A stretch of DNA of 64,000 nt, taken from Gammaproteobacteria bacterium Ga0077554 (lineage in GTDB: Bacteria; Pseudomonadota; Gammaproteobacteria; Ga0077554; Ga007554). Positions 27,290-63,083 of this stretch are shown here, in pieces. The stretch lies in NCBI GenBank assembly GCA_001464585.1, contig LNFF01000040.1, forward strand, positions 71,267 to 135,266, written 5' to 3'. Every line of letters begins with the position of its first letter. Within the stretch, counting starts at the first letter, position 1. Under the pieces are notes generated by a model that had not been told where the DNA came from, searched no databases, and saw only the letters and a list, made by a program, of their open reading frames with translations. The position numbers and the translations under genes were made by a program.

Positions 27290-28507
27290 TTAGTGAAAAC
27301 GATCCAGCTTGATATACAAGGCACGTGTCAACGCCGTACCCTGCGGCAACTGGCCTAACAGCGTAATCAACCGCTGATGCGCGCGCAGCCGGATTTCCAC
27401 AGTATCAGCGCGCATCGCTAAAAATGCAAACAAGGCGCGTGCGCGTATCGGATGCTCTTCCGCCAGCGACTGCGCCACCGCAAACCACGGCGCAAAATCA
27501 CCCATCAATAATTGCTGCTGATTACTCAACACCTGCGCGTACGTCACATACGCATCCCACACACTGTCGTCAGTGATATTAAACAAACCTGCAAAGGCAG
27601 AGGGCGTCACGCCTTCATAGAGCGCCAACACATACTCCATTGCTTCTACACGACGCTCATGATCCCCAATCACCTTCGCCGCCTCAGCCTGCGCCACGGC
27701 CGCCAGCCCCTGTGATGCGGTGACAGGCTGCGGTGCCAATAACTGGCGCGCTTCCTGCAAAATATTTTCAGGGCGGCCACCACTGCGCAACCGCGCCAGC
27801 AAATGCAATGCAACCGCAGCGGGTTCCTGCTCCCCCGCCAATAGCGCCGCCGCTTCCGCAGCACGCTCCATCAACAACAAGACATGCGCCTGGAGCAACT
27901 GCGTTTGCACATCCTCGCCATAATCCTGCTGGTAGCGCAGCAGAGCAATGTAGGCGTCATCCACTCGTCCATCCACAATATAGCTGTGAATCACCATGCG
28001 GCGCCATTCCGAGAATAACCGACTGTCCACACCGGCAGGGTGCCAAATCAAACGCAACAGCCCTGCACGCGCGGCAGTGCCCTGGCTTGATTCGAGTTGC
28101 GCGGCAACGCCTTGAGTTAAAACCCAGCGGGTAAATGCAAGGGGTAAATTATCGGGTAACGCCTGCGTGCGACGCACTACCGACGCCCAGTCACGGCGCT
28201 GCTGATAAATTAAAATACGCGCTTTTTCCCATGCGGCCCACTCAACCGCAAGCGGGTCAATAGATGTTTGTTGCTGATCTATTATATGAAGAGCAAGCTC
28301 GGGGGCGCCTTGTTCGGCAAGGGAGATAACGTCCTGGAAGGGAGCCGTTCCTGCGCATCCTGCGCTCACGGCACTTGTGCATCCCGGCAATTGCTCCTGC
28401 ATTGCTCTACCTTCCGCCGTCCTGGCGGTCGCCTGCACAGCGTCGGCATGGGCGGCGGCGGCAAATAATCCTAACGCCGCACAAACACAGATGAGATATC
28501 GCCGCAT
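27290..28507 (-). CDS. Exported TPR-type protein with in-frame repeat insertion
   Basis: A 405-residue protein with a signal peptide (RRYLICVCAALGLFAAAAHA) and a body of Ala/Leu-rich helical repeats suggestive of TPR/Sel1-like structure; no named family was recognised. Just after the signal peptide, GRAMQEQLPGCTSAVSAGCAGTAPF is encoded by the dispersed repeat at 28344-28432. The ATG at 28507 is favoured by the signal peptide; upstream in-frame codons are probably untranslated. It is 8 bp from ogt. Likely periplasmic. Confidence 0.7.
   Translation of the reverse strand: MRRYLICVCAALGLFAAAAHADAVQATARTAEGRAMQEQLPGCTSAVSAGCAGTAPFQDVISLAEQGAPELALHIIDQQQTSIDPLAVEWAAWEKARILIYQQRRDWASVVRRTQALPDNLPLAFTRWVLTQGVAAQLESSQGTAARAGLLRLIWHPAGVDSRLFSEWRRMVIHSYIVDGRVDDAYIALLRYQQDYGEDVQTQLLQAHVLLLMERAAEAAALLAGEQEPAAVALHLLARLRSGGRPENILQEARQLLAPQPVTASQGLAAVAQAEAAKVIGDHERRVEAMEYVLALYEGVTPSAFAGLFNITDDSVWDAYVTYAQVLSNQQQLLMGDFAPWFAVAQSLAEEHPIRARALFAFLAMRADTVEIRLRAHQRLITLLGQLPQGTALTRALYIKLDRFH
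28344..28432. repeat. Mobile-like palindromic repeat, in-frame in a CDS
   Basis: It combines GCCGTTCCTGCGCATCC with CACGGCACTTGTGCATCC (shared with the copy at 39473) and the unit GGCAATTGCTCCTGCATTG..CCGCCGTCCTGGCGGTCGCC (shared with 44432-44480). The host gene stays open across it. Confidence 0.8.
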
Positions 28508-29920: not shown

Positions 29921-30066
29921 GACCGCCAAGGATGGCGGTCGCTTCCGGCATCCTGCCTCTGGCGACACTTGTGCGTCCCTGCACGGCGGAAGTGCCGAAA
30001 ACGCGCCGGGCAGGAAGCCCAAGTGCTGCGAGTGCAGGGAAGAGCGCCAGCGAAGGGTTCCACATG
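29921..30066. repeat. Composite palindromic repeat between rimM and trmD
   Basis: It begins with the hairpin GACCGCCAAGGATGGCGGTC, continues with CCGGCATCCTGCCTCTGGCG, CACTTGTGCGTCCCTGCACGG and ends with GCAGGGAAGAGCGCCAGCGAAGGGTTC, a module seen again at 55826 and 58938. It occupies most of the 192-bp gap between two genes that normally sit close together. Confidence 0.8.
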
Positions 30067-30983: not shown

Positions 30984-31055
30984 TTATACCTGTTTCCTTT
31001 GAGTCAATGCTAATAATGAGGCGCCACCCGCCCTGTGTTGCGGACGGCAACGGTC

Positions 31056-31095
31056 GTTCACGGCATCCTGCCTCCCACGCCGTGCAGGGAAGGGC
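31056..31095. repeat. Palindromic repeat copy upstream of rpsP
   Basis: CACGGCATCCTGCCTCCCACG followed by CCGTGCAGGGAAGGGCGG is a short member of the CDS-embedded family. It lies in the gap between ffh and rpsP, upstream of the rpsP operon. Confidence 0.7.
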
Positions 31096-39404: not shown

Positions 39405-39633
39405 GGGTAACCTCTATAAATTCGATCAAGGCGCGAGGGCAAGGCGCCATGATATATAAGGGTGCGCGAAAAAGCGGCCGTTCCTGCGCATCCTGCGCCC
39501 ACGGCATTTGTGCATCCTTGCACGGCAGAGTTTACACGTAGTCTGCCGCTTCCCGACCCCGCATTTTGAGCGCCCTTTATATATACAGGGCAACGCCGCC
39601 ATCGCGGCTTCAGCGAATTTATAGAGGTACCCA
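39404..39633. repeat. 230-bp palindromic element between wspD and wspE
   Basis: Outer arms 39404-39424 and 39614-39633 are inverted copies (core CCTCTATAAATTCG) with one gap. Inner arms TATATAAGGG and CCCTTTATATATA also pair. The centre contains a copy of the CDS-embedded repeat (39473-39530: CCGTTCCTGCGCATCC, TTGTGCATCCTTGCACGG). It exactly fills the space between the wspD stop and the wspE start. Confidence 0.85.
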
Positions 39634-44387: not shown

Positions 44388-44495
44388 GTCATTCCGGGCA
44401 CAGCGAGGAATCTTAAGTTAGGATTTCTCCCGGCAACTGCTCCTGCGTTGCTCTACCTTCCGCCATCCATGGCGGTCGCCTTCGGTCGAAATGAC
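44388..44495. repeat. GTCATTTCGA repeat interrupted by a CDS-type repeat
   Basis: The outer copy runs from GTCATTCCGG to TCGAAATGAC. Compared with the intact copy at 28621-28704, the sequence ATTTCTCCC and the CGGTCGAAATGAC end are split by 49 extra bases (44432-44480). The gap 44227-44595 holds no gene. Confidence 0.85.
44432..44480. repeat. 49-bp CDS-type repeat unit, nested
   Basis: GGCAACTGCTCCTGCGTTGC, then CCGCCATCCATGGCGG (a perfect stem), ending GGTCGCC. The ends GGC and GCC are inverted. The same unit is found inside the TPR-type gene (28387-28432) and in rimM. Confidence 0.85.
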
Positions 44496-49015: not shown

Positions 49016-49085
49016 CTGGTTATTGTCTATTACTGCCATTGTTGCTACAGTCAATCTCTGTAACGCTCACCCTAAAGGCTACCCT

Positions 49086-49985
49086 ATGCAAACACCTTCA
49101 GCATCGGCTTCATTCCGCTCTGCCCATCGTCTTTTAACCAGGCAGATTCTGCCTGCCATTGCGCTGTTATTGGCTTTTTGTGGATTCTCACCAGCCGTAT
49201 CAGCCGCAGACGACGCGCAGGGAAGCGCTAGTGCTGCGGGAGGCAGGATGCCGGGAGTGGCCAACGCACCCGTAGCGCCTGGCGCACCTACGCCACAAAG
49301 CGACCCTCTCGCAGATTTTTTACGTTCGCTTGAACCACGCCTGCAACAGGCCATGAGCGATTCGCTGCTCATCTACCGCAATGCGCCGCGCATCACCAAA
49401 GCCGTTGACAAAAAACGGCTGATCTTTGGCGAACCCACCACGCCTCTGCATTTGATAGAGTGGACTGACATTCGTTGCCCCCACTGCAAGCATCTCGAAG
49501 ACGCACTGAGTGAAATGCGCCGTGTCGCACCTGTCGGCTCGTGGAGCGAAGAAGCGCGCCATTTCCCACTCGATTCCGAATGCAACCCCCACGCGCAACG
49601 CTCAGATGGCAGCGGCGTCAGTTGCCTTGCGGCAAAACTGCAAATCTGCCTGGCGGGCGATGCGAAAGAATTCAACCGCGTGCGCGGCACCATGTTCAAG
49701 GAACAGCGTACCCTCACGCGTGACAGAATCTGGCAAATCACCACCACCGATACCAAGCAACGCAAAAAACTCGAAAGCTGCATTAAATCCCCGCAGACTG
49801 CAAAAACCCTGCGCGAAGACATTGACTATGCGATACAGCATAAACTTGAAGGCACGCCGCTGGTGGTGATCAACAACCGCAAAGCCACGGCATTACCGGC
49901 GATGATTTACACCATGATCATGGTCATGGGCCGCGACAACGACCCTGGCTTCAAGGTGTTGCCGCCACCCAATACACAGCCTTAA
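49086..49985 (+). CDS. Periplasmic DsbA-like thiol oxidoreductase with in-frame repeat
   Basis: A 299-residue protein with a signal peptide (about 1-41, LPAIALLLAFCGFSPAVSAA), then ADDAQGSASAAGGRMPGVAN encoded by the dispersed repeat, then a thioredoxin domain with IEWTDIRCPHCKHLEDAL (CPHC active site as in DsbA) and EGTPLVVINN (cis-Pro). Two further cysteine pairs may exist in the helical insert. It likely catalyses disulfide exchange in the periplasm; which partner (DsbB or other) is not visible. Confidence 0.85.
   Translation: MQTPSASASFRSAHRLLTRQILPAIALLLAFCGFSPAVSAADDAQGSASAAGGRMPGVANAPVAPGAPTPQSDPLADFLRSLEPRLQQAMSDSLLIYRNAPRITKAVDKKRLIFGEPTTPLHLIEWTDIRCPHCKHLEDALSEMRRVAPVGSWSEEARHFPLDSECNPHAQRSDGSGVSCLAAKLQICLAGDAKEFNRVRGTMFKEQRTLTRDRIWQITTTDTKQRKKLESCIKSPQTAKTLREDIDYAIQHKLEGTPLVVINNRKATALPAMIYTMIMVMGRDNDPGFKVLPPPNTQP
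49213..49262. repeat. In-frame repeat after the signal peptide
   Basis: CGCAGGGAAGCGCTAGTGC and GGGAGGCAGGATGCCGGGAG give the GGRMPG peptide. The nucleotide sequence matches the copies at 58938 and 61178 nearly base for base, far beyond the protein context. Confidence 0.88.
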
Positions 49986-50007
49986 GAGTTCCCGCATAAC
50001 CCCGGCC

Positions 50008-50346
50008 ATGGACTTCATCGACGCCAGCGCCACACTCTTGTTTCTTGGCTTGGGCTGGTTCTGGTGGGATAGTTTAAAGGTGCGGGAACAGGCCATTAAG
50101 TTAGCCTGGCAGGCCTGCCAGGGCGCGCAGGTGCAATTGCTTGACCATACGGTTGCGCTGAAAAAAATCTGGTTTGGACGCAAACGCAGTGGCCGTATCG
50201 CGCTGCTGCGCTCTTATGAATTTGAGTTCAGCAGCACGGGCACGGAACGCCGCAAAGGACTGGTGGTAGTGTTAGGCATGGCGCAGCAATATTTCTCTAT
50301 GGATTTACCCCAGAGCCGTACCATCACTGTAGATCGGGATGTTTAG
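50008..50346 (+). CDS. DUF3301 protein
   Basis: A 112-residue protein with an N-terminal hydrophobic stretch (LLFLGLGWFWWDSLKVREQAIK) and a conserved RSGRIALLRSYEFEFSSTG core. It matches DUF3301, a gammaproteobacterial family of unknown function. Part of its 3' end is duplicated in decayed form at about 51140-51225. Confidence 0.88.
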   Translation: MDFIDASATLLFLGLGWFWWDSLKVREQAIKLAWQACQGAQVQLLDHTVALKKIWFGRKRSGRIALLRSYEFEFSSTGTERRKGLVVVLGMAQQYFSMDLPQSRTITVDRDV

Positions 50347-50469
50347 CCTATAACATGGATTGGAATGACGAAAGGATCCCAGCAATTGACCGTAAAACTA
50401 AATGTCAGGTTTCGTTTCTCAACCCTGCCACAGCTCATAACTGTCGATGGCAAAGATAGGGAACAAAAG

Positions 50470-50514
50470 TAATCCAGCGGATGCGGCGCTTTTTGCCGCG
50501 CCCCCGCTGGATTA
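50470..50514 (-). terminator. Rho-independent type hairpin of the 50547-50948 gene
   Basis: TAATCCAGCGG (50470-50480) and CCGCTGGATTA (50504-50514) pair perfectly, with an inner GCGGC/GCCGC. Read on the minus strand the stem is followed by CTTTTG. Confidence 0.7.
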
Positions 50515-50546
50515 TCCCCCGTTGGTTATCAATGGGGTTAACGGCT

Positions 50547-50948
50547 CTAGAAACTGTGCGAAACCGTGTTGGTTTTTTTCTTCACCTGCACGAGGGTGCT
50601 GAGATTGGTGAGCTTGAGAAGCCCATAGACCTCATCTTGTCCCCAGTCTTCATCTAAAACTCCCTCCCCCAGCAAAACAGTGAATGTCCGGCTCTCAGTG
50701 GCGGCAGGTGTTGGATCAGGAAAGAAGAAAACATCGGAATAAGTGAAGAGAAAATCGTCATCTCCGGTGAGCCCTGAATCTGCGCCCCAGAGCTGGCACT
50801 GCAATTTAAAAAATCGCGCACCTTGACACATCTTCATTTGGCATAACTCCAGTGCCGTAAAATTTACATTGCACTTTACAACGGCTCGTACTGTTTTCTT
50901 GGTGTGGTCATGCGTTAAAACAAGGTTTGCATTAGTGATTGTAGCCAT
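50547..50948 (-). CDS. Hypothetical protein, 133 residues
   Basis: Unrecognised. The protein is predicted beta-rich (TVRAVVKCNVNFTALELCQM; FFKLQCQLWGADSGL; RTFTVLLGEG) without signal peptide or membrane segment. RBS: AAGGAGT six bases from the ATG. Its upstream region shares a block of about 60 bp with the gene at 51398, so the two are likely coregulated. Confidence 0.65.
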   Translation of the reverse strand: MATITNANLVLTHDHTKKTVRAVVKCNVNFTALELCQMKMCQGARFFKLQCQLWGADSGLTGDDDFLFTYSDVFFFPDPTPAATESRTFTVLLGEGVLDEDWGQDEVYGLLKLTNLSTLVQVKKKTNTVSHSF

Positions 50949-50999
50949 GATTGTTTACTCCTTATTTCTAAAATTGACTGGTATTCAGCACCCATCGAC

Positions 51000-51058
51000 A
51001 ACAAACATTTTGCGCCGATGCGTCACGATAATAGACTCCAAGGCGTTACAGATCAGAT
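51000..51058 (-). promoter_or_regulatory. Shared upstream block, copy 1
   Basis: On the minus strand it reads GTTGTATCTGATCTGTAAC, a spacer of variable sequence, then TATTATCGTGACGCATCGG. Copy 2 at 51764-51822 has the same words with few changes. Both lie at a similar distance from a small unknown gene, which fits a common promoter or operator. Confidence 0.6.
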
Positions 51059-51139
51059 ACAACCTGGAAGAAACAGCGGGGGTCAGCGAGGGTAATATTA
51101 CACAGAAACGGCGTGTATCCATGCGTGAAGATTCAAATT

Positions 51140-51225
51140 TCCGTATCGCTCCGCTACGATTTTATGCATCTGAATTCAGCAGCACGGGAAGGTGAAGCGT
51201 CAAGGATTAATTGTGGTGTTAGAAC
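51140..51225 (+). pseudogene. Fragment of a DUF3301 gene
   Basis: CGTATCGCTCCGCTACGATTTTATG, CTGAATTCAGCAGCACGGG and AGGATTAATTGTGGTGTTAG match positions about 50197-50275 of the DUF3301 gene with substitutions and a small deletion. No open frame remains. Confidence 0.75.
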
Positions 51226-51300
51226 CTGTTCCAGATCCCGATCAAGAAATGCAGTGCGCCAAAAATAGGCGCCTTATTCCGGTCAAGCGAGGCAAAAAAA

Positions 51301-51343
51301 TTCACCTGCCGCTATGGAACGCAACTGAATAGCGGCAGGTGAA
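51301..51343 (-). terminator. Rho-independent terminator of the 51398-51694 gene
   Basis: A perfect 15-bp stem (51301-51315 with 51329-51343) around 13 nt; on the minus strand it is followed by seven T. Confidence 0.88.
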
Positions 51344-51352
51344 GCGTTTTGT

Positions 51353-51389
51353 CAGGCGCCGCGTCACCTGACCGCTGCGCCTGTTTTTT
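51353..51389 (+). terminator. Second hairpin with T tract
   Basis: CAGGCGC (51353-51359) pairs with GCGCCTG (51377-51383) and is followed by six T on the plus strand. It lies just before the minus-strand stop of the next gene. Confidence 0.55.
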
Positions 51390-51397
51390 GAGAAAAT

Positions 51398-51694
51398 CTA
51401 CGCCCTGATCTGGATGTACTTCACCAGATTGAAAGTTCTCAGAGGAAGACCCGGCGGTTCACCCACAGTAAGCGTATCGTAATCCACACCTACTTCAACG
51501 CCACCGCCACCAGCGGCGGCCGCCTTCAGCTTGGTAGCCATATAATTTGCACGCTCCAGCATCAGGTCTCCTGTGTATTCAATCCTGAACCAATTCGCTT
51601 GACCCTGGATTATGAAATAGGTGATTTCCTTAGCCGCTTCTTGTGCTCGCCACACTTCACTGATCACGTTTCCTTCGACTTCGTTGTGCGCCAT
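51398..51694 (-). CDS. Hypothetical protein, 98 residues
   Basis: Unrecognised. ISEVWRAQEAAKEITYFIIQ is helical, then a Gly-rich stretch AAAAGGGGVEVG. The start at 51694 (MAHNEVEGN) has AAGGAG seven bases upstream; the ATG at 51715 is weaker. A strong terminator follows. No signal peptide. It shares its upstream block with the gene at 50547. Confidence 0.65.
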   Translation of the reverse strand: MAHNEVEGNVISEVWRAQEAAKEITYFIIQGQANWFRIEYTGDLMLERANYMATKLKAAAAGGGGVEVGVDYDTLTVGEPPGLPLRTFNLVKYIQIRA

Positions 51695-51763
51695 GACTAA
51701 TCTCCTTTGTTTCAATTAATAGATACGCTTCCGAGAATCAACCCGAAGCGTTCCATCCGCAGC

Positions 51764-51822
51764 AAACATGTTGCGCCGATGTGTCACTATAATAAAGGCG
51801 GGCATGTTACAAATCAGGTACA
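51764..51822 (-). promoter_or_regulatory. Shared upstream block, copy 2
   Basis: On the minus strand GTTGTACCTGATTTGTAAC is followed after a nine-base spacer by TTATTATAGTGACACATCGG and GCGCAACATGTTTGCTGCGG. It is the counterpart of copy 1 at 51000-51058. Confidence 0.6.
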
Positions 51823-51854
51823 ACGCGCGAGGATGTTTCCATGCACCCCCCGCC

Positions 51855-52709
51855 CTATTTCTCCATGAACACCAACTGCTCCGGAGGCACGGTCATCTTA
51901 ATTCGCTGGCCCGTCACCTTGATCACATAATCAAACCCCGTGACATGTCCCTGGGGCAGGATTATCATCCGGTCTTGCCGTGATTCGAGATAATCCTTGA
52001 ATCCAGCGAGGGACAAATCACCATCATTCATTGCCAGGTAATCCACCACGCGGCGAAACAGCTTTGGCAAAATAACATTACGCTCTGTGAGCGCGGCAAG
52101 ATCTTTCACCAGAAATCCTGCGGTAGTTTTATCCTGCAACCACAGCCCTTTGCGGCGTGCAGATGTTACCGCACGGGTCATTTCCTGACGCAGGTCGGGA
52201 TACAGTTTGGAATAATAGGTGGGATAAGCCAACCCTTGACCAAGCATGTGATGATTCGCGCTTTTACGCAGCAGATTTTTATCGACATAAATATACGCGC
52301 CATCAGCTTGAGGATAACCACCTTTGAATGCGAACGCGACACAACGCCCATACACATCCGAAAAACGTGTCAATATAAATCCGGCCGTTTGCTGTGGCTG
52401 GGCTGAAACTACGGTTTCCCGGTTTCCACGAACTACATTCCTGAAACCAAAAAACTTCAATAATTCTTCTGCGGCGCCCTGCGCGAACTGGGCCGGCTGG
52501 TGCAACATGCCCAAGGTGGCGGGGGTGGGTTGATAGTGCGTTTCGAGTGTGTCGATGCCCTCCAGGCGTAATTGCCCTCCGCCGCTGCTATTGGTGCGCA
52601 CACCCAGAGGACGCCATAAGTCTGGATTGTCCGGATAGAATTTAATTGAGTCCCCATCAGGGGCGGCATTGAGTATGCGGTAATTTCCCTTGATCAGCAT
52701 GAGTGGCAT
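51855..52709 (-). CDS. Staphylococcal nuclease-like (SNase) protein
   Basis: A 284-residue protein. The SNase fold shows in DGDSIKFYPDNPDLW, QLRLEGIDTLETHY (Arg and Glu in nuclease-like positions) and DVYGRCVAFAFKG (second Arg). The C-terminal 90 residues (TAGFLVKDLAALTERNVILP) are not part of the core. No signal peptide is visible, so it may act in the cytoplasm or be exported otherwise. It is in tandem with the membrane protein gene upstream. Confidence 0.8.
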   Translation of the reverse strand: MPLMLIKGNYRILNAAPDGDSIKFYPDNPDLWRPLGVRTNSSGGGQLRLEGIDTLETHYQPTPATLGMLHQPAQFAQGAAEELLKFFGFRNVVRGNRETVVSAQPQQTAGFILTRFSDVYGRCVAFAFKGGYPQADGAYIYVDKNLLRKSANHHMLGQGLAYPTYYSKLYPDLRQEMTRAVTSARRKGLWLQDKTTAGFLVKDLAALTERNVILPKLFRRVVDYLAMNDGDLSLAGFKDYLESRQDRMIILPQGHVTGFDYVIKVTGQRIKMTVPPEQLVFMEK

Positions 52710-52769
52710 GGTATAGTCCTCTTGAGGTAGGTGGTGTTTGTTATGATATATCCAGAGCGGGTGAAAAAA

Positions 52770-53561
52770 CTACCTCACCTCCAGCAACGATGGCTGCAAG
52801 TTGTTTCTTTCCTTGAAACGTATCGCGTCCACCAACGCTTCAGACTTGCTGCGCGGTTCTGCGTCTTGAACAATCAAAAAGGCGTCTTTTGTTTGGACGA
52901 TTCTTACCTGGGGGATGGTTCTGCTCAAGATTCGGCTCTTAGCGATAGCTTCATTTTCGGTTGCGGCTTCGTCAAGCACAACCAGATATTTGGGCTGATT
53001 TATTTGTATGCCCATATTAAGTTCCGCCACCACCAATGGCGCGGCCACCTCACTGGCATGAGCTGCGCTGATGCCGAGGATGCCAAAGGCACTGGTGCCT
53101 GGGATATTAGGCGATGATGAATCTTCCATTACAGGGGTGACATTTTCCCCTATGATTGGCGAAAAAGGACGCGTCGGTATATCCGATTTTCGATCCAGCT
53201 CTTTTGTTATTTGGTCATTCTTCTCAACATAAGCATTGACCGTGCTGATGCCCGCCGTTGTATTCAGTGCGCTCGCCAGCAATGCAGGAATACCCAACGC
53301 TTTTACAAATGTATCGCCCGGTCTTTTTGGCTGCCGCCATTCAATGATCATGATTACTGCGCCGATCATGATGGCGAATAACAGTGAAACCGCTATATAA
53401 TCGAGACTGAAAAATATGATTTTATCGCCTTTGACCGGCACCGTCAGCGCGGCAAGCATGCGGGGAGCAATGACTGCGCACACACCCGCAACGAATCCAA
53501 TGAAAAATTTCAACATCGGCCTGGAGACATCCAGGTTGTGAATGTGTTTGATCATTTCCAT
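52770..53561 (-). CDS. Membrane protein with SPOR-like C-terminal domain
   Basis: A 263-residue protein with three hydrophobic segments (about 13-35, 47-68, 85-105), a Pro/Ser-rich linker, and a C-terminal domain (about 190-263: KYLVVLDEAATENEAIAKSR; VRIVQTKDAFLIVQDAEP; EALVDAIRFKE) resembling SPOR peptidoglycan-binding folds. It is likely anchored in the inner membrane. The SPOR assignment is from pattern only. Confidence 0.6.
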   Translation of the reverse strand: MEMIKHIHNLDVSRPMLKFFIGFVAGVCAVIAPRMLAALTVPVKGDKIIFFSLDYIAVSLLFAIMIGAVIMIIEWRQPKRPGDTFVKALGIPALLASALNTTAGISTVNAYVEKNDQITKELDRKSDIPTRPFSPIIGENVTPVMEDSSSPNIPGTSAFGILGISAAHASEVAAPLVVAELNMGIQINQPKYLVVLDEAATENEAIAKSRILSRTIPQVRIVQTKDAFLIVQDAEPRSKSEALVDAIRFKERNNLQPSLLEVR

Positions 53562-53591
53562 GGCGACACCCCCTGACAGTGAGTTGAAAAT

Positions 53592-53630
53592 GGCGGTAGA
53601 ACCCTTCGCCGCACTCTTCCTGTGCCGCCA
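53592..53630. repeat. Diverged copy of the CDS-type repeat
   Basis: On the minus strand CACAGGAAGAGTGCGGCG and AAGGGTTCTACCGCCATTTT resemble the CAGGGAAGAGCGCCAGCGAAGGGTTC module. It sits between the regulator stop and the membrane protein gene. Confidence 0.45.
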
Positions 53631-53637
53631 AAAAGAA

Positions 53638-56004
53638 TTACCTGCTTATTACCGCACGGCGCGCAGCCTCAATATGCGATGATGGTGTAATGCCCAATAC
53701 CGTGGAAAATACGGTGTGGCAACGCTGGTAAACACTCAACGCTTCAGCACAACGCCCCTGCCGTTGATAACAGAGCATGAGACGCTGATAAAGAATCTCG
53801 GCAAGCGGATCAATTTCCAAACCTTTGCGATAACTGTTAATGGCTTTTTCCCATTGGCCAATATCTTCGTTGTGCTTGCCGGTTTGTTCCAGATAACGCA
53901 GAAACTTGCTGCGCAGGCGTTCACGTAATGCCAGCGCCCAGGCGTAGTCATTGTCGTCACCTAAAAAATGTCCCTGATAAATCTCCAGCGCTTTTTCCAC
54001 CAGTGATGCAGTATATGTGGCTGGCGGCTGGCTGAAAAATTGCTCTAACGCCCACACATCTACCCAGCAACAGGAGGTATCCAGGGTAAGGCTATTATCA
54101 CGCATAATAATGGCTTTTTCATGACCCAGCATGTGGCGCAGACGATGCAGGGTGACGCGAAACACTTGATGACCGGCATCGCCTTCGGCATCAGGCCATA
54201 GGGCATCAATGATCTGGGTTTCGTTGACATCGCGCGCGCCCAGAGCGATCAGCGCCTTGAGCAGCAACAGCGGTTTGCCTTGGGCTTTACTTTGATTTTT
54301 GCTGGGATCCTGGCCCTCAAAATTCAGCGGCTCACCGGCTTTGACAATACGAAAATGTCCCAATGTATAAATTTTTATCGGCCACGGCCAATTCTGGCAC
54401 TCTACTGAGGATGTCGGCGGTTGCAGGCCATGTTTTTTTATATAATGGCGTACGTATTCTACTTCTATGCCATTTTCCAGTGCTTTTTTGCACAACAGTG
54501 CGATGGCGCAGGGCCGTAGCGTTGGCATGCTGGCATAGCCATGCTTTCTGGCCAACGCAAAAGCTTTGCTCAAGGTAAGCGCACCACGTTCCTCGGCCAC
54601 TCCCGGCATCCTGCCTCTAGTGACACTTGTGCATCCATGCACAGCGAATGAACGCATGAAGCGGAATTGCGCTTCATGCAGGAGGGTAAGATATTCAACA
54701 TATTTGCTCTGCGTGACAATAGCGTAAGTGCGGGTATATGCGAGATGCCGCAGGGCTTCACGACGGCCACCATATTCAAATAATACTTGCGCCAATAGTG
54801 CATGGCACAAGGCTTGGGCATAAGGCGCAGCGGCAGCCTCAGCGAGCGTTAACGCGAGCCGGGCATGCTCGATGGCGCGCGGCAGGTCATGCTGGCTGGC
54901 ACTGTTCCACGCCAACAGGTAATGGTAATGGCTGGCATCAAGATGGCGGGTGGCGATGAGCAAGGTGCCGAGGTTGCCTAAAAACCCCTGCGCGGCCTCA
55001 CGGTTTCCTTTTACCAGCGCGGCTTGTACACCGAGCGCATATAATTGAAAATCGCCACTGTGCGCGCCCGAATTACGCGCAATTTCCAGACCCTCAGTCA
55101 CAGCTTCCAGGCAGGCGTCCGCAGAGACGCGCATCAAACTGTAAAGCGCCTGGCTGATCTGCCATTCCACTTGAATTGCCGCGCTGGGGTTATCCGCCTG
55201 AGCTTTAAGAGTGTGCAGCACCCAGGCGGTAGCCGCCGTGTCACCCTTGTGCAGATAATGCAAAAACAGCCGGTTGCCCAGTATAAATTGCTGGTTAATC
55301 TCCAAACCGCATTGCAGCAATTGCCGGGCGCGCTGTTCCCAGAACGATACGTCAGGATGCTGCGGTTGATGCTGCGTCAATGCGCCTAGCATGGCCTGTG
55401 TGACGCGGGCTTCCAGCTCCAGCGACGGAAACGTGGGGTGGTCGCGCAGAATGTCACCCAGCGCCGCTATCCACCCCTCCAGCGGGCTAAAGTCGGTACG
55501 GCTGAGTAGAATGCTGTCTACGATGCCAACCCACGCATGCAACATGCCTGATATAGTTTGATGAGTCGTGCCACGCGTATTTTGATCATGGAATACGCGG
55601 TACGCCTGCTCAAAATCGGCGCGCCCCTGCTCGGGGCTCAGCGGCATGCAGCATACGCCACTCCAGTAGAGCAACCAGGGATTGGTTTCCAGTACCTTGC
55701 GCGGTAAACGCCGCAATCTGCCTTCCAGCGTCTGCAGGCGCCCCTGTGCGGCCAGGCCAGCGGCTTGATGACACACTACCTGGGCAACGGTCTGCCAATC
55801 GACCACGGGCACCAAATCCGCCACACAGGGAAGAGCGCCAGCGAAGGGTTCTGTAAGTGCTGAGTGAGGCAGGATGCCGGAAGCAACCGCTTCCATGGTC
55901 GTAATCTGCCCGGCAATACTGCTGGCAGAAGCTGGCTTATGATTGCCATGGTAGCGTGGCATAATTCGTTTAGTAAAATTAATCAAAGAAAATGTGTGTT
56001 CCAT
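53638..56004 (-). CDS. BTAD-type transcriptional regulator with two in-frame repeats
   Basis: A 788-residue protein. The long N-terminal part (about 80-510) is built of helical TPR-like repeats; then comes a winged-helix domain (WPIKIYTLGHFRIVKAGEPL; LLLLKALIALGARDVNETQI; LHRLRHMLGHEKAI) and a C-terminal BTAD with TPRs (ALEIYQGHFLGDDNDYAWAL; YRKGLEIDPLAEILYQRLM). [18 protein letters not shown] (about 44) and GCTSVTRGRMPGVAEE (about 463) are repeat-encoded. It looks like a MalT/SARP-related activator without ATPase. It is divergent from moxR and probably controls this cluster or the Bat operon (inference). Confidence 0.78.
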   Translation of the reverse strand: MEHTFSLINFTKRIMPRYHGNHKPASASSIAGQITTMEAVASGILPHSALTEPFAGALPCVADLVPVVDWQTVAQVVCHQAAGLAAQGRLQTLEGRLRRLPRKVLETNPWLLYWSGVCCMPLSPEQGRADFEQAYRVFHDQNTRGTTHQTISGMLHAWVGIVDSILLSRTDFSPLEGWIAALGDILRDHPTFPSLELEARVTQAMLGALTQHQPQHPDVSFWEQRARQLLQCGLEINQQFILGNRLFLHYLHKGDTAATAWVLHTLKAQADNPSAAIQVEWQISQALYSLMRVSADACLEAVTEGLEIARNSGAHSGDFQLYALGVQAALVKGNREAAQGFLGNLGTLLIATRHLDASHYHYLLAWNSASQHDLPRAIEHARLALTLAEAAAAPYAQALCHALLAQVLFEYGGRREALRHLAYTRTYAIVTQSKYVEYLTLLHEAQFRFMRSFAVHGCTSVTRGRMPGVAEERGALTLSKAFALARKHGYASMPTLRPCAIALLCKKALENGIEVEYVRHYIKKHGLQPPTSSVECQNWPWPIKIYTLGHFRIVKAGEPLNFEGQDPSKNQSKAQGKPLLLLKALIALGARDVNETQIIDALWPDAEGDAGHQVFRVTLHRLRHMLGHEKAIIMRDNSLTLDTSCCWVDVWALEQFFSQPPATYTASLVEKALEIYQGHFLGDDNDYAWALALRERLRSKFLRYLEQTGKHNEDIGQWEKAINSYRKGLEIDPLAEILYQRLMLCYQRQGRCAEALSVYQRCHTVFSTVLGITPSSHIEAARRAVISR
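54597..54645. repeat. In-frame repeat in the BTAD regulator (3' copy)
   Basis: CACTCCCGGCATCCTGCCTC and CACTTGTGCATCCATGCAC are the family core on the plus strand; the minus-strand host reads through it as RGRMPGVA. Confidence 0.85.
55826..55890. repeat. In-frame repeat in the BTAD regulator (5' copy)
   Basis: CAGGGAAGAGCGCCAGCGAA, GGGTTCTGTAAGTGC and GGCAGGATGCCGGAAGC follow on the plus strand. The host gene reads the opposite strand and still stays open ([18 protein letters not shown]). Confidence 0.85.
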
Positions 56005-56078
56005 AGCAGCACCCCCATCCCGAAAAAGCATTTATCTGTTGATGGCTTAAAAATAACCCCAGGAAGGAGGCAATGAAA

Positions 56079-56090
56079 GGTAATATTACC
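56079..56090. promoter_or_regulatory. Palindrome GGTAATATTACC
   Basis: A perfect 12-bp palindrome in the divergent promoter region of the regulator and moxR. Its 10-bp core GTAATATTAC also occurs at 51092-51101, upstream of the shared block of the 50547 gene. This fits an operator site. Confidence 0.45.
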
Positions 56091-56185
56091 CAACGTACCA
56101 GTGATTTATTACCGGTCTGTGCTGACACGCCGGACAGCGGTATACTTGGACATTCAATCGAACAGCGGCACCCGGAACATCATTC

Positions 56186-57151
56186 ATGCAAAACGCACTC
56201 ACGGCGCTTAAAACACATATCGAAACGACGCTGGTTGGCCAAGCCGTGCTGGTGGAACGCCTGTTGATCAGCGTGCTGACCAATGGCCATCTGCTGGTAG
56301 AAGGCGTGCCAGGGCTGGCCAAGACCACAGCGGTGCGCGCCCTGGCGGAGGGTATTGCGGCACGTTTTCAGCGCATTCAATTCACTCCCGACCTGATTCC
56401 GGGCGACATCACTGGCACAGATATATTTATACCTAACGAAGGCCGTTTTCGTTTTGTCGAAGGGCCGATTTTTAACGACATTATTCTCGCCGATGAAATC
56501 AATCGTGCGCCGCCCAAAGTTCAAACTGCCTTGCTCGAAGCCATGCAGGAACACCAGGTGACAACAGGGGGCGTGACGCGCAAACTGTCACCGGTGTTTC
56601 TGGTGATGGCGACGCAGAATCCGATTGAGCAGGAAGGCACGTATCCGCTGCCTGAAGCACAGCTCGATCGTTTTCTGATGAAGGTAGATCTGGACTATCC
56701 TACCTCTGCCGAAGAACTGGAAATCCTGCGCCGCGATAGTGCGCGGCTGCAAGGTGCGAGCAAAGGCACCATCACAGCACCGCAAGCGCCATTAACAGCG
56801 CAACACATCATGGATGCGCGCGCCGCAGTAAATCACATTTATATGGATCAAATGCTGGAACGCTACATTGTCACACTGGTGGGCGCTACGCGTAACGCAA
56901 CACGTTGGGACGACCAGGCCGCGCGATGGCTGGCGCGCGGCGCATCACCGCGCGCTACGCTGGCGCTGGCGCATGCCGCGCGTGCGCGCGCGTATTTGTG
57001 CGAACGTGATTTTGTCGAACCGGGTGATATTATGGATCTGGCATACCATGTGCTGAATCACCGCATCGCGTTAAGTTTTGCCGCACGCGCCGATGGCGTT
57101 ACGCGCCAACAAGTGATTGCGCGTTTGATCGAGAAAGTGCCTGCGCCGTGA
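56186..57151 (+). CDS. MoxR family AAA+ ATPase
   Basis: A 321-residue MoxR protein. Walker A GVPGLAKTTAVRALAEG, Walker B IILADEINRAPPKVQTALLEAM, and ATQNPIEQEGTYPLPEAQLDRFLMK are all present. MoxR proteins act as chaperones that activate or insert cofactors in partner proteins, together with VWA-domain proteins such as those encoded downstream. The start overlaps nothing; the stop overlaps the DUF58 start (GTGA). Confidence 0.95.
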   Translation: MQNALTALKTHIETTLVGQAVLVERLLISVLTNGHLLVEGVPGLAKTTAVRALAEGIAARFQRIQFTPDLIPGDITGTDIFIPNEGRFRFVEGPIFNDIILADEINRAPPKVQTALLEAMQEHQVTTGGVTRKLSPVFLVMATQNPIEQEGTYPLPEAQLDRFLMKVDLDYPTSAEELEILRRDSARLQGASKGTITAPQAPLTAQHIMDARAAVNHIYMDQMLERYIVTLVGATRNATRWDDQAARWLARGASPRATLALAHAARARAYLCERDFVEPGDIMDLAYHVLNHRIALSFAARADGVTRQQVIARLIEKVPAP

Positions 57152-58101
57152 TACACACCTTGAACAATAACACCCCTCGTAGCGTGCGCCATGCGCACGA
57201 AACCACTACGGAGCATCGGTTATTAAGTACTGTCGATTTAGAACAGTTGCAGCTCAAAATCCTGGAACGCACCATGCGCCCCAGGCACCGCGTCACCTCA
57301 CCCATCATCGGCCAGCACCCCTCAATATTTCGCGGACACGGCATGGAGCTTGAGGACATGCGCGCCTATCAGGCAGGCGATGATGTGCGTTACATGGATT
57401 GGCGCGCCACTGCCCGCAGCGGCAAACCCATCATGAAAGTATTCCGTGAGGAACGCAGCCAAGGCCTGTTTTTCATGATTGACCGCCGAGCCAGCATGCA
57501 CTTTGGCACGCGCGGTGAGCTAAAAGCCGTCACCGCCGCACGCAGCGCCGCGATATTGGCATTTTCTGCCCTGGCAGCGCGTGATTCGGTAGCTGGCATG
57601 GTCGTCGAAAGTGATGAGAAATTTTTTCCTGGTGCGCGGGATATTAATAATGCGTTGCAACTGCTGCGCGCCGCCAGCGCACCGCTGACACCGTTGCCCA
57701 TGACTGACCAGCACACCACAACCATGAGCACACTGCTGGCACAAATAGACCGCGCCGCAGGCCGTGGCACATCAATATGCCTGATCAGCGACTTCAAAGA
57801 CTTGCGTGCTGAACACGTTCCTGCATTGTTGCAGCTCACCGCAAGCCATGAAGTATTGGCACTACAGGTTATCGACCCCGCCGAAGAAACATTATCAGAC
57901 GCTGGCAAGCTGCGCATGACATCCCCCAACGGAGAGTTGTTTGTGGTAGACACGGCGGATGCCGGATTACGCACCCGCTACGCACACGCCATGGCGAAAC
58001 AGCACGCTGATCTTGCCCAATTATTTGCGCGTACCGGCATTTCCCTGCAACACCTGTATACCCACAAAGATACTTTCGAACAATTATCCAGCCATGAATG
58101 A
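57148..58101 (+). CDS. DUF58 protein
   Basis: A 317-residue DUF58 protein. GMELEDMRAYQAGDDVRYMDWRATARSGKP is the hallmark near residue 68; VFREERSQGLFFMIDRRASM leads into a VWA-like domain. These proteins are always found with MoxR and VWA genes and probably bridge them. Coupled to moxR and to DUF4381. Confidence 0.93.
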   Translation: MIHTLNNNTPRSVRHAHETTTEHRLLSTVDLEQLQLKILERTMRPRHRVTSPIIGQHPSIFRGHGMELEDMRAYQAGDDVRYMDWRATARSGKPIMKVFREERSQGLFFMIDRRASMHFGTRGELKAVTAARSAAILAFSALAARDSVAGMVVESDEKFFPGARDINNALQLLRAASAPLTPLPMTDQHTTTMSTLLAQIDRAAGRGTSICLISDFKDLRAEHVPALLQLTASHEVLALQVIDPAEETLSDAGKLRMTSPNGELFVVDTADAGLRTRYAHAMAKQHADLAQLFARTGISLQHLYTHKDTFEQLSSHE

Positions 58102-58603
58102 TGCCGACAAAAATTCTGAAATTTTAAGTCGTTTGGCAGATATTGAATTACCTGCGCCTCCCGACTGGCAACCCCTACTAATAGCAAGTGGCGCAATCAT
58201 TATTGCATTGGTGTTAATCGTATTAACACGCCTGTATATCCGTCACAGAAAAAAATCATCTACTGATGCTGGTGCGCATCTGGATCCTGCGCTGGCCGCG
58301 CATTTGCAACTGCAACAACTTATTCATGACTGGCAATCACACGTCATAAATGACCGTGAAGCCGCTTATCGGCTAGTTACTCTGCTGCGGCTTGGCCTCG
58401 GTCTGCCACAGCTCACTCACACCTGCCCGCCACACATCGCGGCTGACCAACAGGCCTGGCAAGAAACTGTAGCGCTCTGCACTCACCTGCGCTATCAACC
58501 AGCGCCCGTAACAGGCCTGTCTCTGGCAACCTTTCAGCGTGCCGAACAATGGCTGCTAAAAACCAGTGCGCATGACCAAGGCGTGCGTGTGCATGGCGTG
58601 TAA
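58094..58603 (+). CDS. DUF4381 membrane protein
   Basis: A 169-residue protein with one membrane helix (LLIASGAIIIALVLIVLTRLYI, about 30-52). DIELPAPPDWQPL and YRLVTLLRLGLGLPQL are recognisable DUF4381 traits. It overlaps the DUF58 stop by 8 bp. Its role in the Bat complex is unknown. Confidence 0.85.
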   Translation: MNDADKNSEILSRLADIELPAPPDWQPLLIASGAIIIALVLIVLTRLYIRHRKKSSTDAGAHLDPALAAHLQLQQLIHDWQSHVINDREAAYRLVTLLRLGLGLPQLTHTCPPHIAADQQAWQETVALCTHLRYQPAPVTGLSLATFQRAEQWLLKTSAHDQGVRVHGV

Positions 58604-58606
58604 ATC

Positions 58607-59674
58607 ATGTTAGAGCTTGCCGCACCGTGGTGGTTGCTTGCCGTGCCGTTACCGTGGCTGGCGTGGTGGTGGAGCGTGCGGCTTAAGTCCGAGAGGTTCA
58701 CACTCGCTACCGTCCCAGCCATACGGCATGCGCAAGCAGATGTACTGTTCAACCTCGTTGGTAACACCCGCCCACACATTAACCGTACCCCTTGGCTATG
58801 GATCATCGGCTGCGTCTGTCTCGTGCTTGCGCTGGCACGTCCACAATGGAGTGAGTCAGCGCCCAACACTTATAAGGGACGCGATTTCCTGCTGGCGCTG
58901 GATGTATCTGGCTCAATGCGCGCGCAAGACTTCGACGCACAGGGAAGAGCGCAAGCGAAGGGTTCTGCAAGTGCCGAGGGAGGCAGGATGCCGGGAGCGG
59001 CCGAGACAAATGGCGCCACCCTAAGCCGTCTCGACATGCTGAAAAAAATCGTCAACCAGTTTCTCAGTGAACGCCACGGCGACCGCATCGGCTTGATTGT
59101 GTTCGCTGACGATGCCTACACGTTATCACCACTCACCAGCGACATGAATATAGTACGCAGCCTGTTGCAAGAAGTGCGTCATGGCATGGCGGGCGAAAAA
59201 ACTGCGCTGGGCACGGCGATGGCACTTGCCGTAAAGCGCCTGCAAGACCGTGATGCCAAAGCCCGTGTATTGATCCTGCTCACCGATGGCAGTAATACTG
59301 CCGGAGAAATCCATCCCGACGCAGCAGCGGCACTCGCTGCTGAAGAAGGCATCCGCATTTACACAGTGGGCATCGGTTCGCATCAAACCGTACCCTTTCC
59401 GCGCGGCCCGAATGAAAAACCTGCCTACACTGAAATGCCACTCGATGAACACTTGCTACGCCGCATTGCCGAACGCACCCAAGGCCGTTACTATGCCGCC
59501 GCGAATACTACTGAAGTCCAGCGCATTATTGGCGATATAGAAAAACTTGAAAAAATAGATATTACAGATAACGCATTATTAAAACACACTGAATGGTACT
59601 GGTTACCACTCAGTGCTGGATTGACGTTACTCCTGGTGTCGCAACGCCGCGCGCGCAACGAGGTATTGCCGTGA
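58607..59674 (+). CDS. batA: BatA-type VWA membrane protein with in-frame repeat
   Basis: A 355-residue protein with membrane helices near residues 5-20 and 65-80 and a third near the C-terminus. The VWA MIDAS motif is FLLALDVSGSMRAQDF. Directly behind it DAQGRAQAKGSASAEGGRMP is encoded by the dispersed repeat, after which SRLDMLKKIVNQFLSERHGDRIGLIVFADDAYT resumes the domain. BatB in this operon has no such insert. It likely works with MoxR at the inner membrane in stress tolerance. Confidence 0.92.
   Translation: MLELAAPWWLLAVPLPWLAWWWSVRLKSERFTLATVPAIRHAQADVLFNLVGNTRPHINRTPWLWIIGCVCLVLALARPQWSESAPNTYKGRDFLLALDVSGSMRAQDFDAQGRAQAKGSASAEGGRMPGAAETNGATLSRLDMLKKIVNQFLSERHGDRIGLIVFADDAYTLSPLTSDMNIVRSLLQEVRHGMAGEKTALGTAMALAVKRLQDRDAKARVLILLTDGSNTAGEIHPDAAAALAAEEGIRIYTVGIGSHQTVPFPRGPNEKPAYTEMPLDEHLLRRIAERTQGRYYAAANTTEVQRIIGDIEKLEKIDITDNALLKHTEWYWLPLSAGLTLLLVSQRRARNEVLP
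58938..59005. repeat. In-frame repeat in batA
   Basis: CACAGGGAAGAGCGCAAGCG, AAGGGTTCTGCAAGTGCC and GAGGGAGGCAGGATGCCGGG are contiguous and match the copies at 55826 and 49213. They interrupt the VWA domain between MIDAS and the following helix. Confidence 0.88.
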
Positions 59675-61428
59675 TTCCACAGCTGGAGTGGCGCGAACCA
59701 TTATGGTTGTTGTTAGCCATCATCCCATGGCTGGGCTTGGCCCGGATGGGATGGGGGCGCAATAAAAAAACCTCAGCGCAGCAGGAACGTCGTAACGCCT
59801 TTGCCGACTCACATCTATGGCAATACCTTATTTTAGGGCAAGGCAAATCAAACCCCACCTTCCATGAAAAAAACCGGCTTGCATGGATAGCCGCATGGAC
59901 ATTGGCAGCACTGGCAGCCAGCGGCCCATCCATGCAAACACAACTACCTGATACCACGGCGCAAGCCAGCGGCATTGACATCGCGGTGGCGATCGACATC
60001 TCGCCCTCCATGTCAGTGCAGGATATTACCCCCAACCGCCTGGAACGCGCCAAACTGGAATTGCGCGATTTCGTTAGCCGCTTAAATGGCGATCGTGTGG
60101 CACTGATTGCATTTTCTGCCAATGCTTACGTGACACTACCATTAACACCCGACACAGCAACTTTTCTAAACTTTTCTGATCTCCTCGACCCTGGCCTGGT
60201 GATCAAGCACGGCTCCAATATTGCGCGCGCATTATTGATGGCACGTCAAACGCTGGAAGGTGCTGAACAACAAAGCCGCGCCATTATCTTAATCACTGAC
60301 GGCGAATCCCACAACAGCGCAGCCGCCCTGGCAGAAGCAAATACATTGCGCGCCCTGGGCATTCCACTGTTCATTGTCGGTGTCGGCACTGACGCAGGTG
60401 GCCCTGTGCCCGATGGCAAGGGACACTTTATGAAAATAAAAGATGAGCTGGTTGTTTCACGACTGGAGCGCGCCACACTGACATCGTTGGCGCAGAAAAC
60501 TGGCGGGCTTTACCTTGACATCAGCAGCGATGACAGCGAGTGGCAGAAATTATTTACCCAGTTGCGTAAACTTAAACCTGCCCAATATTCTCACGACACA
60601 CCGGAGCAACATTACCAACTCTTTCCCTGGCTGCTTGGAATCAGTCTGTTACTGTTCCTGTGGGCAGGTGCGCGACAAGGTACGCTCGCATTACTTGCCT
60701 GGGCCATGGTGATGCCTTTGATGGGATTGCCTGGAAAAGCTCATGCAACGCCCTGGGCAGAACAACGCGCACTGGACGCGCTCAATGAAAATAACTACGA
60801 AAAAGCCACAACGCTATATCGCGGCATAAAATCATTTAATGGCCTGATGGGCCTGGGCGCCAGCGCTTATCGTCAACAACAATGGGAAGTGGCGCTGAGC
60901 GCCTTTCAGCAGGCATCGCGTAATGCCAGCAGCGACACCGAGCGCGCCCAGGCCAGTTATAATACCGGCAATACCCTGGTGAAAATGAACCGCCTCGACG
61001 AAGCGGCCCGCACTTATGAAACCGCGCTCCGCTGGCAAAAAAATTATCCACGTGCCGCGCTTAATCTAACCCTGATCAATAAAGAAAAAGAATTTCGTGC
61101 CCACATTAAATCAGGAGCCGGGGAAACAGGTGACCAGAAAAAAACACCAGCCCTGAACACAGCCACCCAATCTGACGACGCGCAGGGACGCGCTAGTGCC
61201 GTGGGAGGCAGGATGCCGGGAGCGGCAAAAAATGACACTGGGCTTCAACAGGAAAAAACAACCACTGGCGATCCTTCTCAGGATTCAGGGAAAACATATA
61301 AAACATCAAAAACCCGAGAAAAAATGCAAGCCCTGCGTGAAAATTCCCAGGAATTATTGAGCAATCGCTTTTCTACTGCTGACAAATTCTCTGGCGTGCT
61401 GGTGGTAGAGGATGAAAAGCCATGGTAA
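59671..61428 (+). CDS. batB: BatB/BatC-type VWA-TPR protein with in-frame repeat
   Basis: A 585-residue fusion of a VWA domain and TPRs. Membrane helices near 10-25, 60-80, 315-335; VWA MIDAS DIAVAIDISPSMSVQDITP; two TPR units around 400-470 (NTGNTLVKMNRLDEAARTYE). A low-complexity tail contains SDDAQGRASAVGGRMPGAAK from the repeat. The GTG start at 59671 overlaps the batA stop (GTGA) and has GAGG upstream. Confidence 0.9.
   Translation: MIPQLEWREPLWLLLAIIPWLGLARMGWGRNKKTSAQQERRNAFADSHLWQYLILGQGKSNPTFHEKNRLAWIAAWTLAALAASGPSMQTQLPDTTAQASGIDIAVAIDISPSMSVQDITPNRLERAKLELRDFVSRLNGDRVALIAFSANAYVTLPLTPDTATFLNFSDLLDPGLVIKHGSNIARALLMARQTLEGAEQQSRAIILITDGESHNSAAALAEANTLRALGIPLFIVGVGTDAGGPVPDGKGHFMKIKDELVVSRLERATLTSLAQKTGGLYLDISSDDSEWQKLFTQLRKLKPAQYSHDTPEQHYQLFPWLLGISLLLFLWAGARQGTLALLAWAMVMPLMGLPGKAHATPWAEQRALDALNENNYEKATTLYRGIKSFNGLMGLGASAYRQQQWEVALSAFQQASRNASSDTERAQASYNTGNTLVKMNRLDEAARTYETALRWQKNYPRAALNLTLINKEKEFRAHIKSGAGETGDQKKTPALNTATQSDDAQGRASAVGGRMPGAAKNDTGLQQEKTTTGDPSQDSGKTYKTSKTREKMQALRENSQELLSNRFSTADKFSGVLVVEDEKPW
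61178..61227. repeat. In-frame repeat in batB tail
   Basis: CGCGCAGGGACGCGCTAGTG and CGTGGGAGGCAGGATGCCGG encode QGRASAVGGRMPG. It is nearly identical to the copy at 49213 though the surrounding proteins are unrelated. Confidence 0.88.
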
Positions 61429-63083
61429 AAAAAATAGTCGCGCTCATTACCGCATGCATATTATGGACGGCCACCCCGTTTATTATAATGGCTGCGCAGG
61501 CTGCCACCACGCTCACCGCCAGTGTTGACCGCACGACTATTAAAATGGATGAGCATGTTGTATTCACGCTCTCACTGATTAATAGCGACACGCGCTTACG
61601 CGCTGAAGGCCTGTCACCCAACGTGGATCTGAGCGTACTATCCCCTGATTTTGATACAGGCATTCCGCGCGCGGCCAATCGTTTTAATTTATCACGCCAT
61701 GAGGGTGACCAGGGTAACCGCGCCATCTCCAGCATTACCGTGGAATTATTTCCAAAACGTACCGGGCGTTATACCATCCCCGCTTTTCAGGTAGATGGAC
61801 AACGCAGCAATCCTGTTGTGATTAACGTCAACGCCGCTATCGCTACAGATACGCCAGAAGTTTTTATACGCAGTAGCGTTAACAAAAATACTGCCTGGGC
61901 GCGCGAACAAACCCTTGTTTATCTGGAGTTGCTGCATCGCGTCAACCTAAGCACTGCCAGCCTGGGTGGGGATATTCAAACATCACCCACGCGTATTGAA
62001 TTACTCGATTCTCGCAAACTGCCCCAAACCGAACGTAAAGAACAGATTGATGGCATCACTTACAATGTGCAACGTATGGCCTGGGCATTATTCCCCACCC
62101 AAAGCGGTAACCTTACCGTGCGCTTACCTGACATTTGGGCCATTACGGAGAAAGGGCGCCGTTTGCGTTTGCCTGGAAAACAACATCCGATTCAGGTTAA
62201 GGCATTGCCTGCGGGTATAGCTGCTGACCTGTTGGTAGGCAAACCTGAAATTAACCAAAGCCCACTCACCGCTTTACCCGACATCAACAGTCTCACCTCG
62301 TGGAATATCACCTTACGCGCCCCGGTAATGGATCACACGCTACCCGCCAGCTTGCCCGGATTAACCGCTCCGGCAAACATCAAACTCTATCTCGACAAGG
62401 CACAACGGCAAATCGAAGAACATGCCGATGGCATTGTCAGCATCGCAAATTACACCGTTTCTGTCACACCATTGGCCGCTGGCGAATTTCGCATGCCCAC
62501 CATTATCATTCCCTACTTCGACACCCTGCGCGGCAGCGTCGACAAGATCGAACTGCCGGGGCAAACGCTTACCGTAAAATCTGGCCCACCGCCTACTGTG
62601 ATGACACCAACACCGAACCCGCTCGCGCAAGCAAAATCACAAACCACATCCCCTACCACATTATGGCCGTGGAAAGTCTCAACATTCATTTTCGCTGTAC
62701 TGTGGCTGGCGACATTAATACTGTTGAAACGTGCGCGCGCTTCGGCAACCCCACAAGAAAAATATGTAGCGAATGAAAATTTCAACGAACAACCAGGGGC
62801 TCTTGCCCTGCGACCACTGCAAACATTGTTGCTGGAAGCGTTCGGCAGCCAATCGCTTGATCAAGGTTTGCATGAGTGGGAAACCAGATACGGGATCGAT
62901 CAGGAATTACGCCAAACCGTGCGGGAAGTACAACGCTTATATTACGGAAAAGAAAAAACAAATGATGCGCATCTAAAGCAGGCAGTGCATGCGGCGGTAA
63001 CAAAAATCCGCGCCGCTCAGAAGCCATTACCCTCTTCTCCTGATAACACTTGGCGCCCCGAGTCGTTCACACCGCGTTATTAA
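61422..63083 (+). CDS. batD: BatD-like protein
   Basis: A 553-residue protein with a signal peptide (about 1-28), a beta-rich periplasmic region with TTIKMDEHVVFTLSLINSDT and repeated Ig-like modules, then a membrane helix near 420-440 (WKVSTFIFAVLWLATLILL) and a basic cytoplasmic tail. It completes the Bat set (MoxR, DUF58, DUF4381, BatA, BatB, BatD). ATGGTAA overlap with batB. Confidence 0.88.
   Translation: MVKKIVALITACILWTATPFIIMAAQAATTLTASVDRTTIKMDEHVVFTLSLINSDTRLRAEGLSPNVDLSVLSPDFDTGIPRAANRFNLSRHEGDQGNRAISSITVELFPKRTGRYTIPAFQVDGQRSNPVVINVNAAIATDTPEVFIRSSVNKNTAWAREQTLVYLELLHRVNLSTASLGGDIQTSPTRIELLDSRKLPQTERKEQIDGITYNVQRMAWALFPTQSGNLTVRLPDIWAITEKGRRLRLPGKQHPIQVKALPAGIAADLLVGKPEINQSPLTALPDINSLTSWNITLRAPVMDHTLPASLPGLTAPANIKLYLDKAQRQIEEHADGIVSIANYTVSVTPLAAGEFRMPTIIIPYFDTLRGSVDKIELPGQTLTVKSGPPPTVMTPTPNPLAQAKSQTTSPTTLWPWKVSTFIFAVLWLATLILLKRARASATPQEKYVANENFNEQPGALALRPLQTLLLEAFGSQSLDQGLHEWETRYGIDQELRQTVREVQRLYYGKEKTNDAHLKQAVHAAVTKIRAAQKPLPSSPDNTWRPESFTPRY

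Follow-up and report, generated by a model that had tools for sequence, protein, structure and literature searches.

The stretch inserted in batA very probably belongs to a family of mobile DNA elements, non-autonomous and built of two hairpins, that land widely and of which selection keeps the tolerated in-frame copies. BatA itself is nothing special; the family of elements is the finding. "Window" refers below to the whole 64,000-nucleotide stretch of DNA analysed. The batA locus contains the following features:

58607..59674, + strand: batA, open reading frame of 355 aa with a VWA domain (PF13519 at residues 95-228, plus PF00092).
58934..59002, + strand: element inserted in batA, extended 69-bp form, sense, frame 0 (DAQGRAQAKGSASAEGGRMPGAA); hit of covariance model R1 at 58931-59006; empty site in sister genome G002, net 69 bp.
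59593..61428, + strand: batB, VWA plus TPR (open reading frame and Pfam), with its own MIDAS loop free of insert.
61177..61227, + strand: 51-bp copy in the C-terminal part of batB, sense, frame 0 (DAQGRASAVGGRMPGAA); R1 hit; empty site in G002, net 51 bp.

The operon encodes a MoxR-type ATPase, a DUF58 protein, BatA, BatB-TPR and BatD, so that the VWA-domain protein BatA stands in the order MoxR-DUF58-BatA-BatB-BatD. Its top NCBIfam model was a BatA model, with a score under the cut-off of that model. BatA reads ALDVSGSMRAQDF, then DAQGRAQAKGSASAEGGRMPGAA, then ETNGATLSRLDMLKKIV, the residues after DAQGRAQAKGSASAEGGRMPGAA being ETNGATLSRLDM; BatB reads IDISPSMSVQDITPNRLERAKLEL at the corresponding place, without insert. 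The BatA insert of 69 bp corresponds to 23 codons (residues 110-132) and lies directly after the MIDAS motif (DxSxS), within the VWA domain. Pfam VWA_2 (95-228) covers it, and the PF00092 alignment starts only at residue 142. An earlier note on this DNA had described an insert behind the MIDAS motif of BatA that is absent from BatB. This was confirmed, and the insert is missing also in the closest relative, G002 (locus L036; 89% identical protein), where the empty site reads TTC followed directly by TTTGCGGACGGC. The span given in that note, 58920-59040, had the right location but was too long, the actual unit being slightly shorter (58934-59002). Its statement that the insert has been kept is weakened by the comparison of BatA homologues: the complete insert was present only in this genome, the closer relative G002 is empty, and the BatA of the other sister genome, G001, has a shorter stretch, DAQGHAVAT, at the insert spot. 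DAQGHAVAT looks like the element minus most of hairpin 2, and is either a decayed shared copy or the result of a second insertion event. G002 BatA is closer to the window BatA than G001 BatA is; therefore, either the copy was lost in G002 or the spot was hit twice. G001 BatA also has a second, element-like in-frame insert further on (L037:5592-5657; DAQGRTSAVDSTTPRMEEA), whose hairpin is divergent (CCAAGGATGG); at the place of this second insert, the BatA of g2 genomes has short QG-rich loops.

In an AlphaFold model of BatA based on eight sequences, the VWA core was reasonable and residues 118-136, which link the MIDAS strand to the long helix that follows, had pLDDT <50. The model of the insert-free BatA (L036) was poor (mean pLDDT 50.6), and a with/without comparison was not usable. 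The model of the window protein suggests that the insert forms a disordered loop next to the MIDAS site, and nothing points to a new function for it.

The element has the consensus GCCGTGCAGGGATGCACAAGTGTCGCGGGAGGCAGGATGCCGGGAGCGACC. Its standard unit is 51 bp (G[AC]CG ... GCGACC), with hairpin 1 GTGC-AGGGAT-GCAC and hairpin 2 GTCGC-GGGA-GGCA-GGA-TGCC-GGGA-GCGAC. In extended forms of 66, 69 or 84 bp, hairpin 1 is longer by 18 bp (as in the BatA copy), hairpin 2 is longer by 15 bp, or both are lengthened in this way. The 20-base core, with up to 3 mismatches, had 87 matches in the 2.9-Mb genome vs. 0 in the reversed control, and covariance model R1, with 150 candidates scored, gave at least 146 copies in this genome. 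The element occurs in both orientations, within genes and between them. In an alignment of 108 copies, which was fitted to the covariance model and thereby favours the structure, 95.4% of pair cells were standard pairs and two-sided changes numbered 177, whereas shuffles had 56 and slid controls never more than 28. RNAalifold on a free MAFFT alignment recovered the same stems. The GGA loops are almost invariant, while the stems change by compensation. The 15- and 18-bp extensions (GAGCGAAGCGAGGGGTYC-like; e.g., window 58944-58965, and L130) are found repeatedly, in one hairpin or the other, and perhaps represent a small insertion unit of their own.

Direct and inverted repeat analysis of the window found the BatA-insert unit on both strands. 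Besides the copies in batA and batB, the following were located:

49212..49262, + strand: 51-bp copy just behind the signal peptide (judged by eye) of a DsbA/thioredoxin-like exported protein (open reading frame 48936-49985; PF13462/PF01323), sense, frame 0; R1 hit.
54595..54645, - strand: 51-bp copy in a BTAD-type transcriptional regulator gene (53638-56031; PF03704), sense, frame 0 (AVHGCTSVTRGRMPGVA); R1 hit.
55820..55888, + strand: 69-bp extended copy at the 5' end of the same regulator gene (53638-56031), antisense; R1 hit at 55817-55892.
29937..29987, - strand: 51-bp copy classed as overlapping a gene end; R1 hit at 29933-29990.
39476..39526, - strand: 51-bp intergenic copy, GCGC/GCGC inner stem variant; R1 hit at 39472-39529.
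28343..28393, - strand: 51-bp copy at a gene 5' end (gene call), GCGC/GCGC stem variant; R1 hit at 28339-28396.
31053..31081, - strand: partial copy with hairpin 2 only; R1 hit.

Two other repeats were seen. A second palindromic family, TGTCATTYCGAGCGYAGSGAGRAATC, occurs at window 1148, 2149, 3838, 7866, 12318, 28620 and 44387 and resembles CGTC/TGTC-tagged REPs (PMC3733652). A companion repeat, GGCAATTGCTCCTGCATTGCTCTACCTTCCGCC, often adjoins copies of the element (window 28382-28422, 30495-30535 and 44428-44468; L034).

Stretches around 141 copies were compared with ~1.1 Mb of the two sister genomes, G001 and G002. Fifteen sites filled in the present genome were cleanly empty in a sister, the net difference being 51 bp at 11 sites, 66 bp at two and 69 bp at two. 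These 15 precise empty sites indicate that the element moves. The base before the insertion point, read by eye, was C in 11 of the 15 empty sites (P = 3e-4 vs. 0.28). No clear target duplication was observed at the empty sites; one or two C are possible. Six sites were filled in both genomes of the sister comparison. In G002, one of these (C31:75682) carries a further 51-bp element nested within the hairpin 1 loop, and another (C34:6656) carries the 15-bp extension. In the shared copy at C12:10278, the hairpin 1 stem GCAC/GTGC is changed to GTAC/GTAC, a compensatory pair of changes. At C12:10278, C30:31886, C32:105856 and C40:59752, hairpin 2 is identical to that in G002 and the flanks are ~10% different; constraint or copying between elements could explain this.

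Many copies lie within genes, as called by our own codon-usage model, which ignores the copies themselves: 79 of 141 in this genome (62 of them at least 60 bases from gene ends) and 72 of 102 in G001/G002. Because 118 copies would be expected in genes at random from their share of the DNA, more than the 79 observed in this genome, most insertions in genes are evidently purged or avoided. Net length was divisible by three for 75 of the 79 genic copies vs. 41 of the 62 non-genic copies (Fisher P = 1e-5), and the sister genomes repeated this bias (69/72 genic vs. 23/30 non-genic). The possibility that all copies have triplet lengths was rejected; it holds for genic copies only, and about one third of non-genic copies departing from 51 bp are triplets. 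Each in-gene insertion adds 17 to 23 amino acids and leaves the frame open. The two mildest frames, AVQGCTSVAGGRMPGAT and, in reverse, VAPGILPPATLVHPCT, account for most readings of genic copies. By peptide, DAQGRASVAGGRMPGAA-like readings were used 32 times, VASGILPPATLVHPCTA-like readings 21 times, an 18-letter peptide 12 times and a 19-letter peptide 9 times; the two remaining frames were used 3 and 2 times. This skew exceeded the prediction from open frames (P = 2e-14) and that from C or G content by codon position (P = 3e-5 for sense, 1e-3 for antisense copies), and therefore the peptide is most likely visible to selection. Because copies share descent, the triplet and frame P values are rough. 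All six frames of the element consensus are open, but 25% of its shuffles have this property too, and the idea that the family is tuned for openness in all six frames was rejected. Translation of the in-gene copies is strongly implied.

Of 30 host genes scanned against Pfam, 28 matched. Era, PheT, alanine racemase (Alr), PurH, RimO, GcvPA, amino-acid N-acetyltransferase (ArgA) and CysE scored above the NCBIfam cut-off, and GpsA did so at subfamily level. The element was inside the Pfam domain envelope in more than half of the scanned hosts, including the SMC hinge, PheT B3/4, PurH AICARFT, RimO TRAM, ETF and AAA_22. Beyond the family, motifs recognised by eye suggest copies in frames resembling valyl-tRNA synthetase (L055), MurD (L257, two in tandem) and MetH (L260).

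Three other explanations were considered. Positions in the core domains of essential enzymes, where 17 extra residues are surprising, would speak for inserts that are not translated, through ribosome bypass or removal from the mRNA; byp elements of yeast mitochondria are a precedent for bypass. A bypassed element would not need triplet length or an open frame, whereas the genic copies keep both and their frame use is skewed by the peptide, which makes such bypass or removal very unlikely. An RNA function is improbable too, although somewhat less so. The element would then be mainly a regulatory module whose copies in mRNAs bind CsrA, the in-gene positions being a by-product. The loops (C-ANGGAU-G, CAGGAUG) seem to resemble CsrA/RsmA sites and CsrB repeats, the near-invariance of GGA above compensating stems fits such binding, and one CsrA is encoded in each of five genomes tested. 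However, antisense copies would present UCC loops, and no strand bias was found, either in genes (47 sense vs. 32 antisense; P = 0.11) or among intergenic copies (co-directional, 23 vs. 19), which argues against an RNA role being the main cause. Rfam also gave no match at E up to 1 (window 48000-63000).

That the BatA loop is ordinary length variation with no mobile origin is hardly conceivable. DAQGHAVAT in G001 and the short QG-containing loops of g2 genomes at the second site are in line with it; however, the match between insert and dispersed element runs over the full length, and the G002 site is empty. Length variation is thus already refuted for the 69-bp unit; except for G001, the BatA homologues compared lack any such loop. 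The proposal that a mobile-like sequence entered a metal-binding domain loop is borne out by the precise 69-bp empty site, the dispersed family and the placement behind DxSxS in the VWA domain. The earlier reading as a whole is supported in part: mobile entry holds, retention of the insert less so, and the focus on BatA overlooks that dozens of genes carry the same element.

Seven genomes of the same bacterial family had 22-147 copies each, and G004 had a single copy. In an even sample of Gammaproteobacteria, at least one strong match was found in 66 of 369 genomes and 54 of 272 genera; per-genome copy numbers in this sample are lower bounds for many genomes (at least 15 candidates). Outside Gammaproteobacteria, only weaker matches were found, in one family. 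Plasmids gave one match, an antisense in-frame copy in the primase gene of a Lonsdalea populi plasmid (L259:2998-3055, NZ_CP072857.1), and a peptide search of plasmids gave none. There was one half-length match in phages, and no match in viral contigs, in E. coli or in a peptide search of PDB.

We propose that mobile copies land widely and that selection would retain only open-frame insertions in tolerant loops, where they add flexible peptide. A transposase acting in trans, possibly a REP-type tyrosine transposase or another single-stranded DNA enzyme, would recognise single-stranded hairpins with GGA loops. Covarying stems together with nearly invariant GGA loops would suit an enzyme that, like REP tyrosine transposases, recognises single strands in folded form. 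No mobilising gene was found: Y1_Tnp genes occur also in element-free genomes, and none of 28 Y1_Tnp loci tested had flanking copies. Neighbourhood thus gave no support for RAYT as mobiliser. In G002, the open frame of one Y1_Tnp transposase gene contains a nested pair of copies (L197:1675-1783).

Mitochondrial double-hairpin elements and related hairpin repeats are small GC-rich two-hairpin units that are seemingly mobile. They are similar to the present element by description, as small two-hairpin units, and differ in belonging to organelle genomes. MITEs have terminal inverted repeats and target-site duplication, whereas the hairpins here are internal and no clear duplication was seen beyond the possible one or two C. 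Rickettsia palindromic elements (RPE) are small palindromic repeats of unexplained mobility that occur both in intergenic DNA and as in-frame fusions within conserved protein genes (PMC2229807, PMC3733652). They are 105-146 bp long with terminal inverted repeats; their hosts are alphaproteobacteria with an obligate intracellular life, and the first work cited in these papers counted 19 intragenic cases (PMC2229807, PMC3733652). The present element is of the same kind, a palindromic repeat inserted in frame in conserved protein genes, and would work like RPE. It is set apart from the RPE description (PMC2229807) by its 51-bp length, two hairpins, presence in many gammaproteobacterial genera and more than half of its copies in genes. 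GTAG/CGTC REPs with RAYT are high-copy short palindromes with compensatory stem changes and some copies in genes (PMC3733652), all of which apply here as well. However, REPs are mostly intergenic, and the present element has two hairpins with GGA loops, flanks none of the Y1_Tnp loci tested, and has the 5' end CG[ACT]CG, with CGTC in only a few copies and no GTAG end. ERIC, YPAL and Correia/NEMIS elements are likewise short and non-autonomous, and their open frames can be fused to genes (PMC2229807); unlike the present element, they are ~107-168 bp, are listed with target duplications and are mostly intergenic (PMC2229807). The kind is thus known from RPE and intragenic REPs; we found no description of this family among the papers searched, including a search by sequence string.

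We tentatively suggest, at somewhat less than even confidence, a family spread across the class Gammaproteobacteria that routinely colonises protein genes and is moved by a putative GGA-hairpin enzyme also targeting resident copies in their loops; such a family would steadily supply essential enzymes with new peptide loops. Most knowledge of palindromic elements that code for protein comes from Rickettsia and its relatives. In the present family, insertions are recent, the empty sites in sister species are exact, some copies are nested, and dozens of conserved enzymes are hosts, so that the agent moving such elements and the way in which proteins absorb random inserts become directly testable. 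Annotators should expect 17-residue repeat inserts in otherwise conserved proteins.
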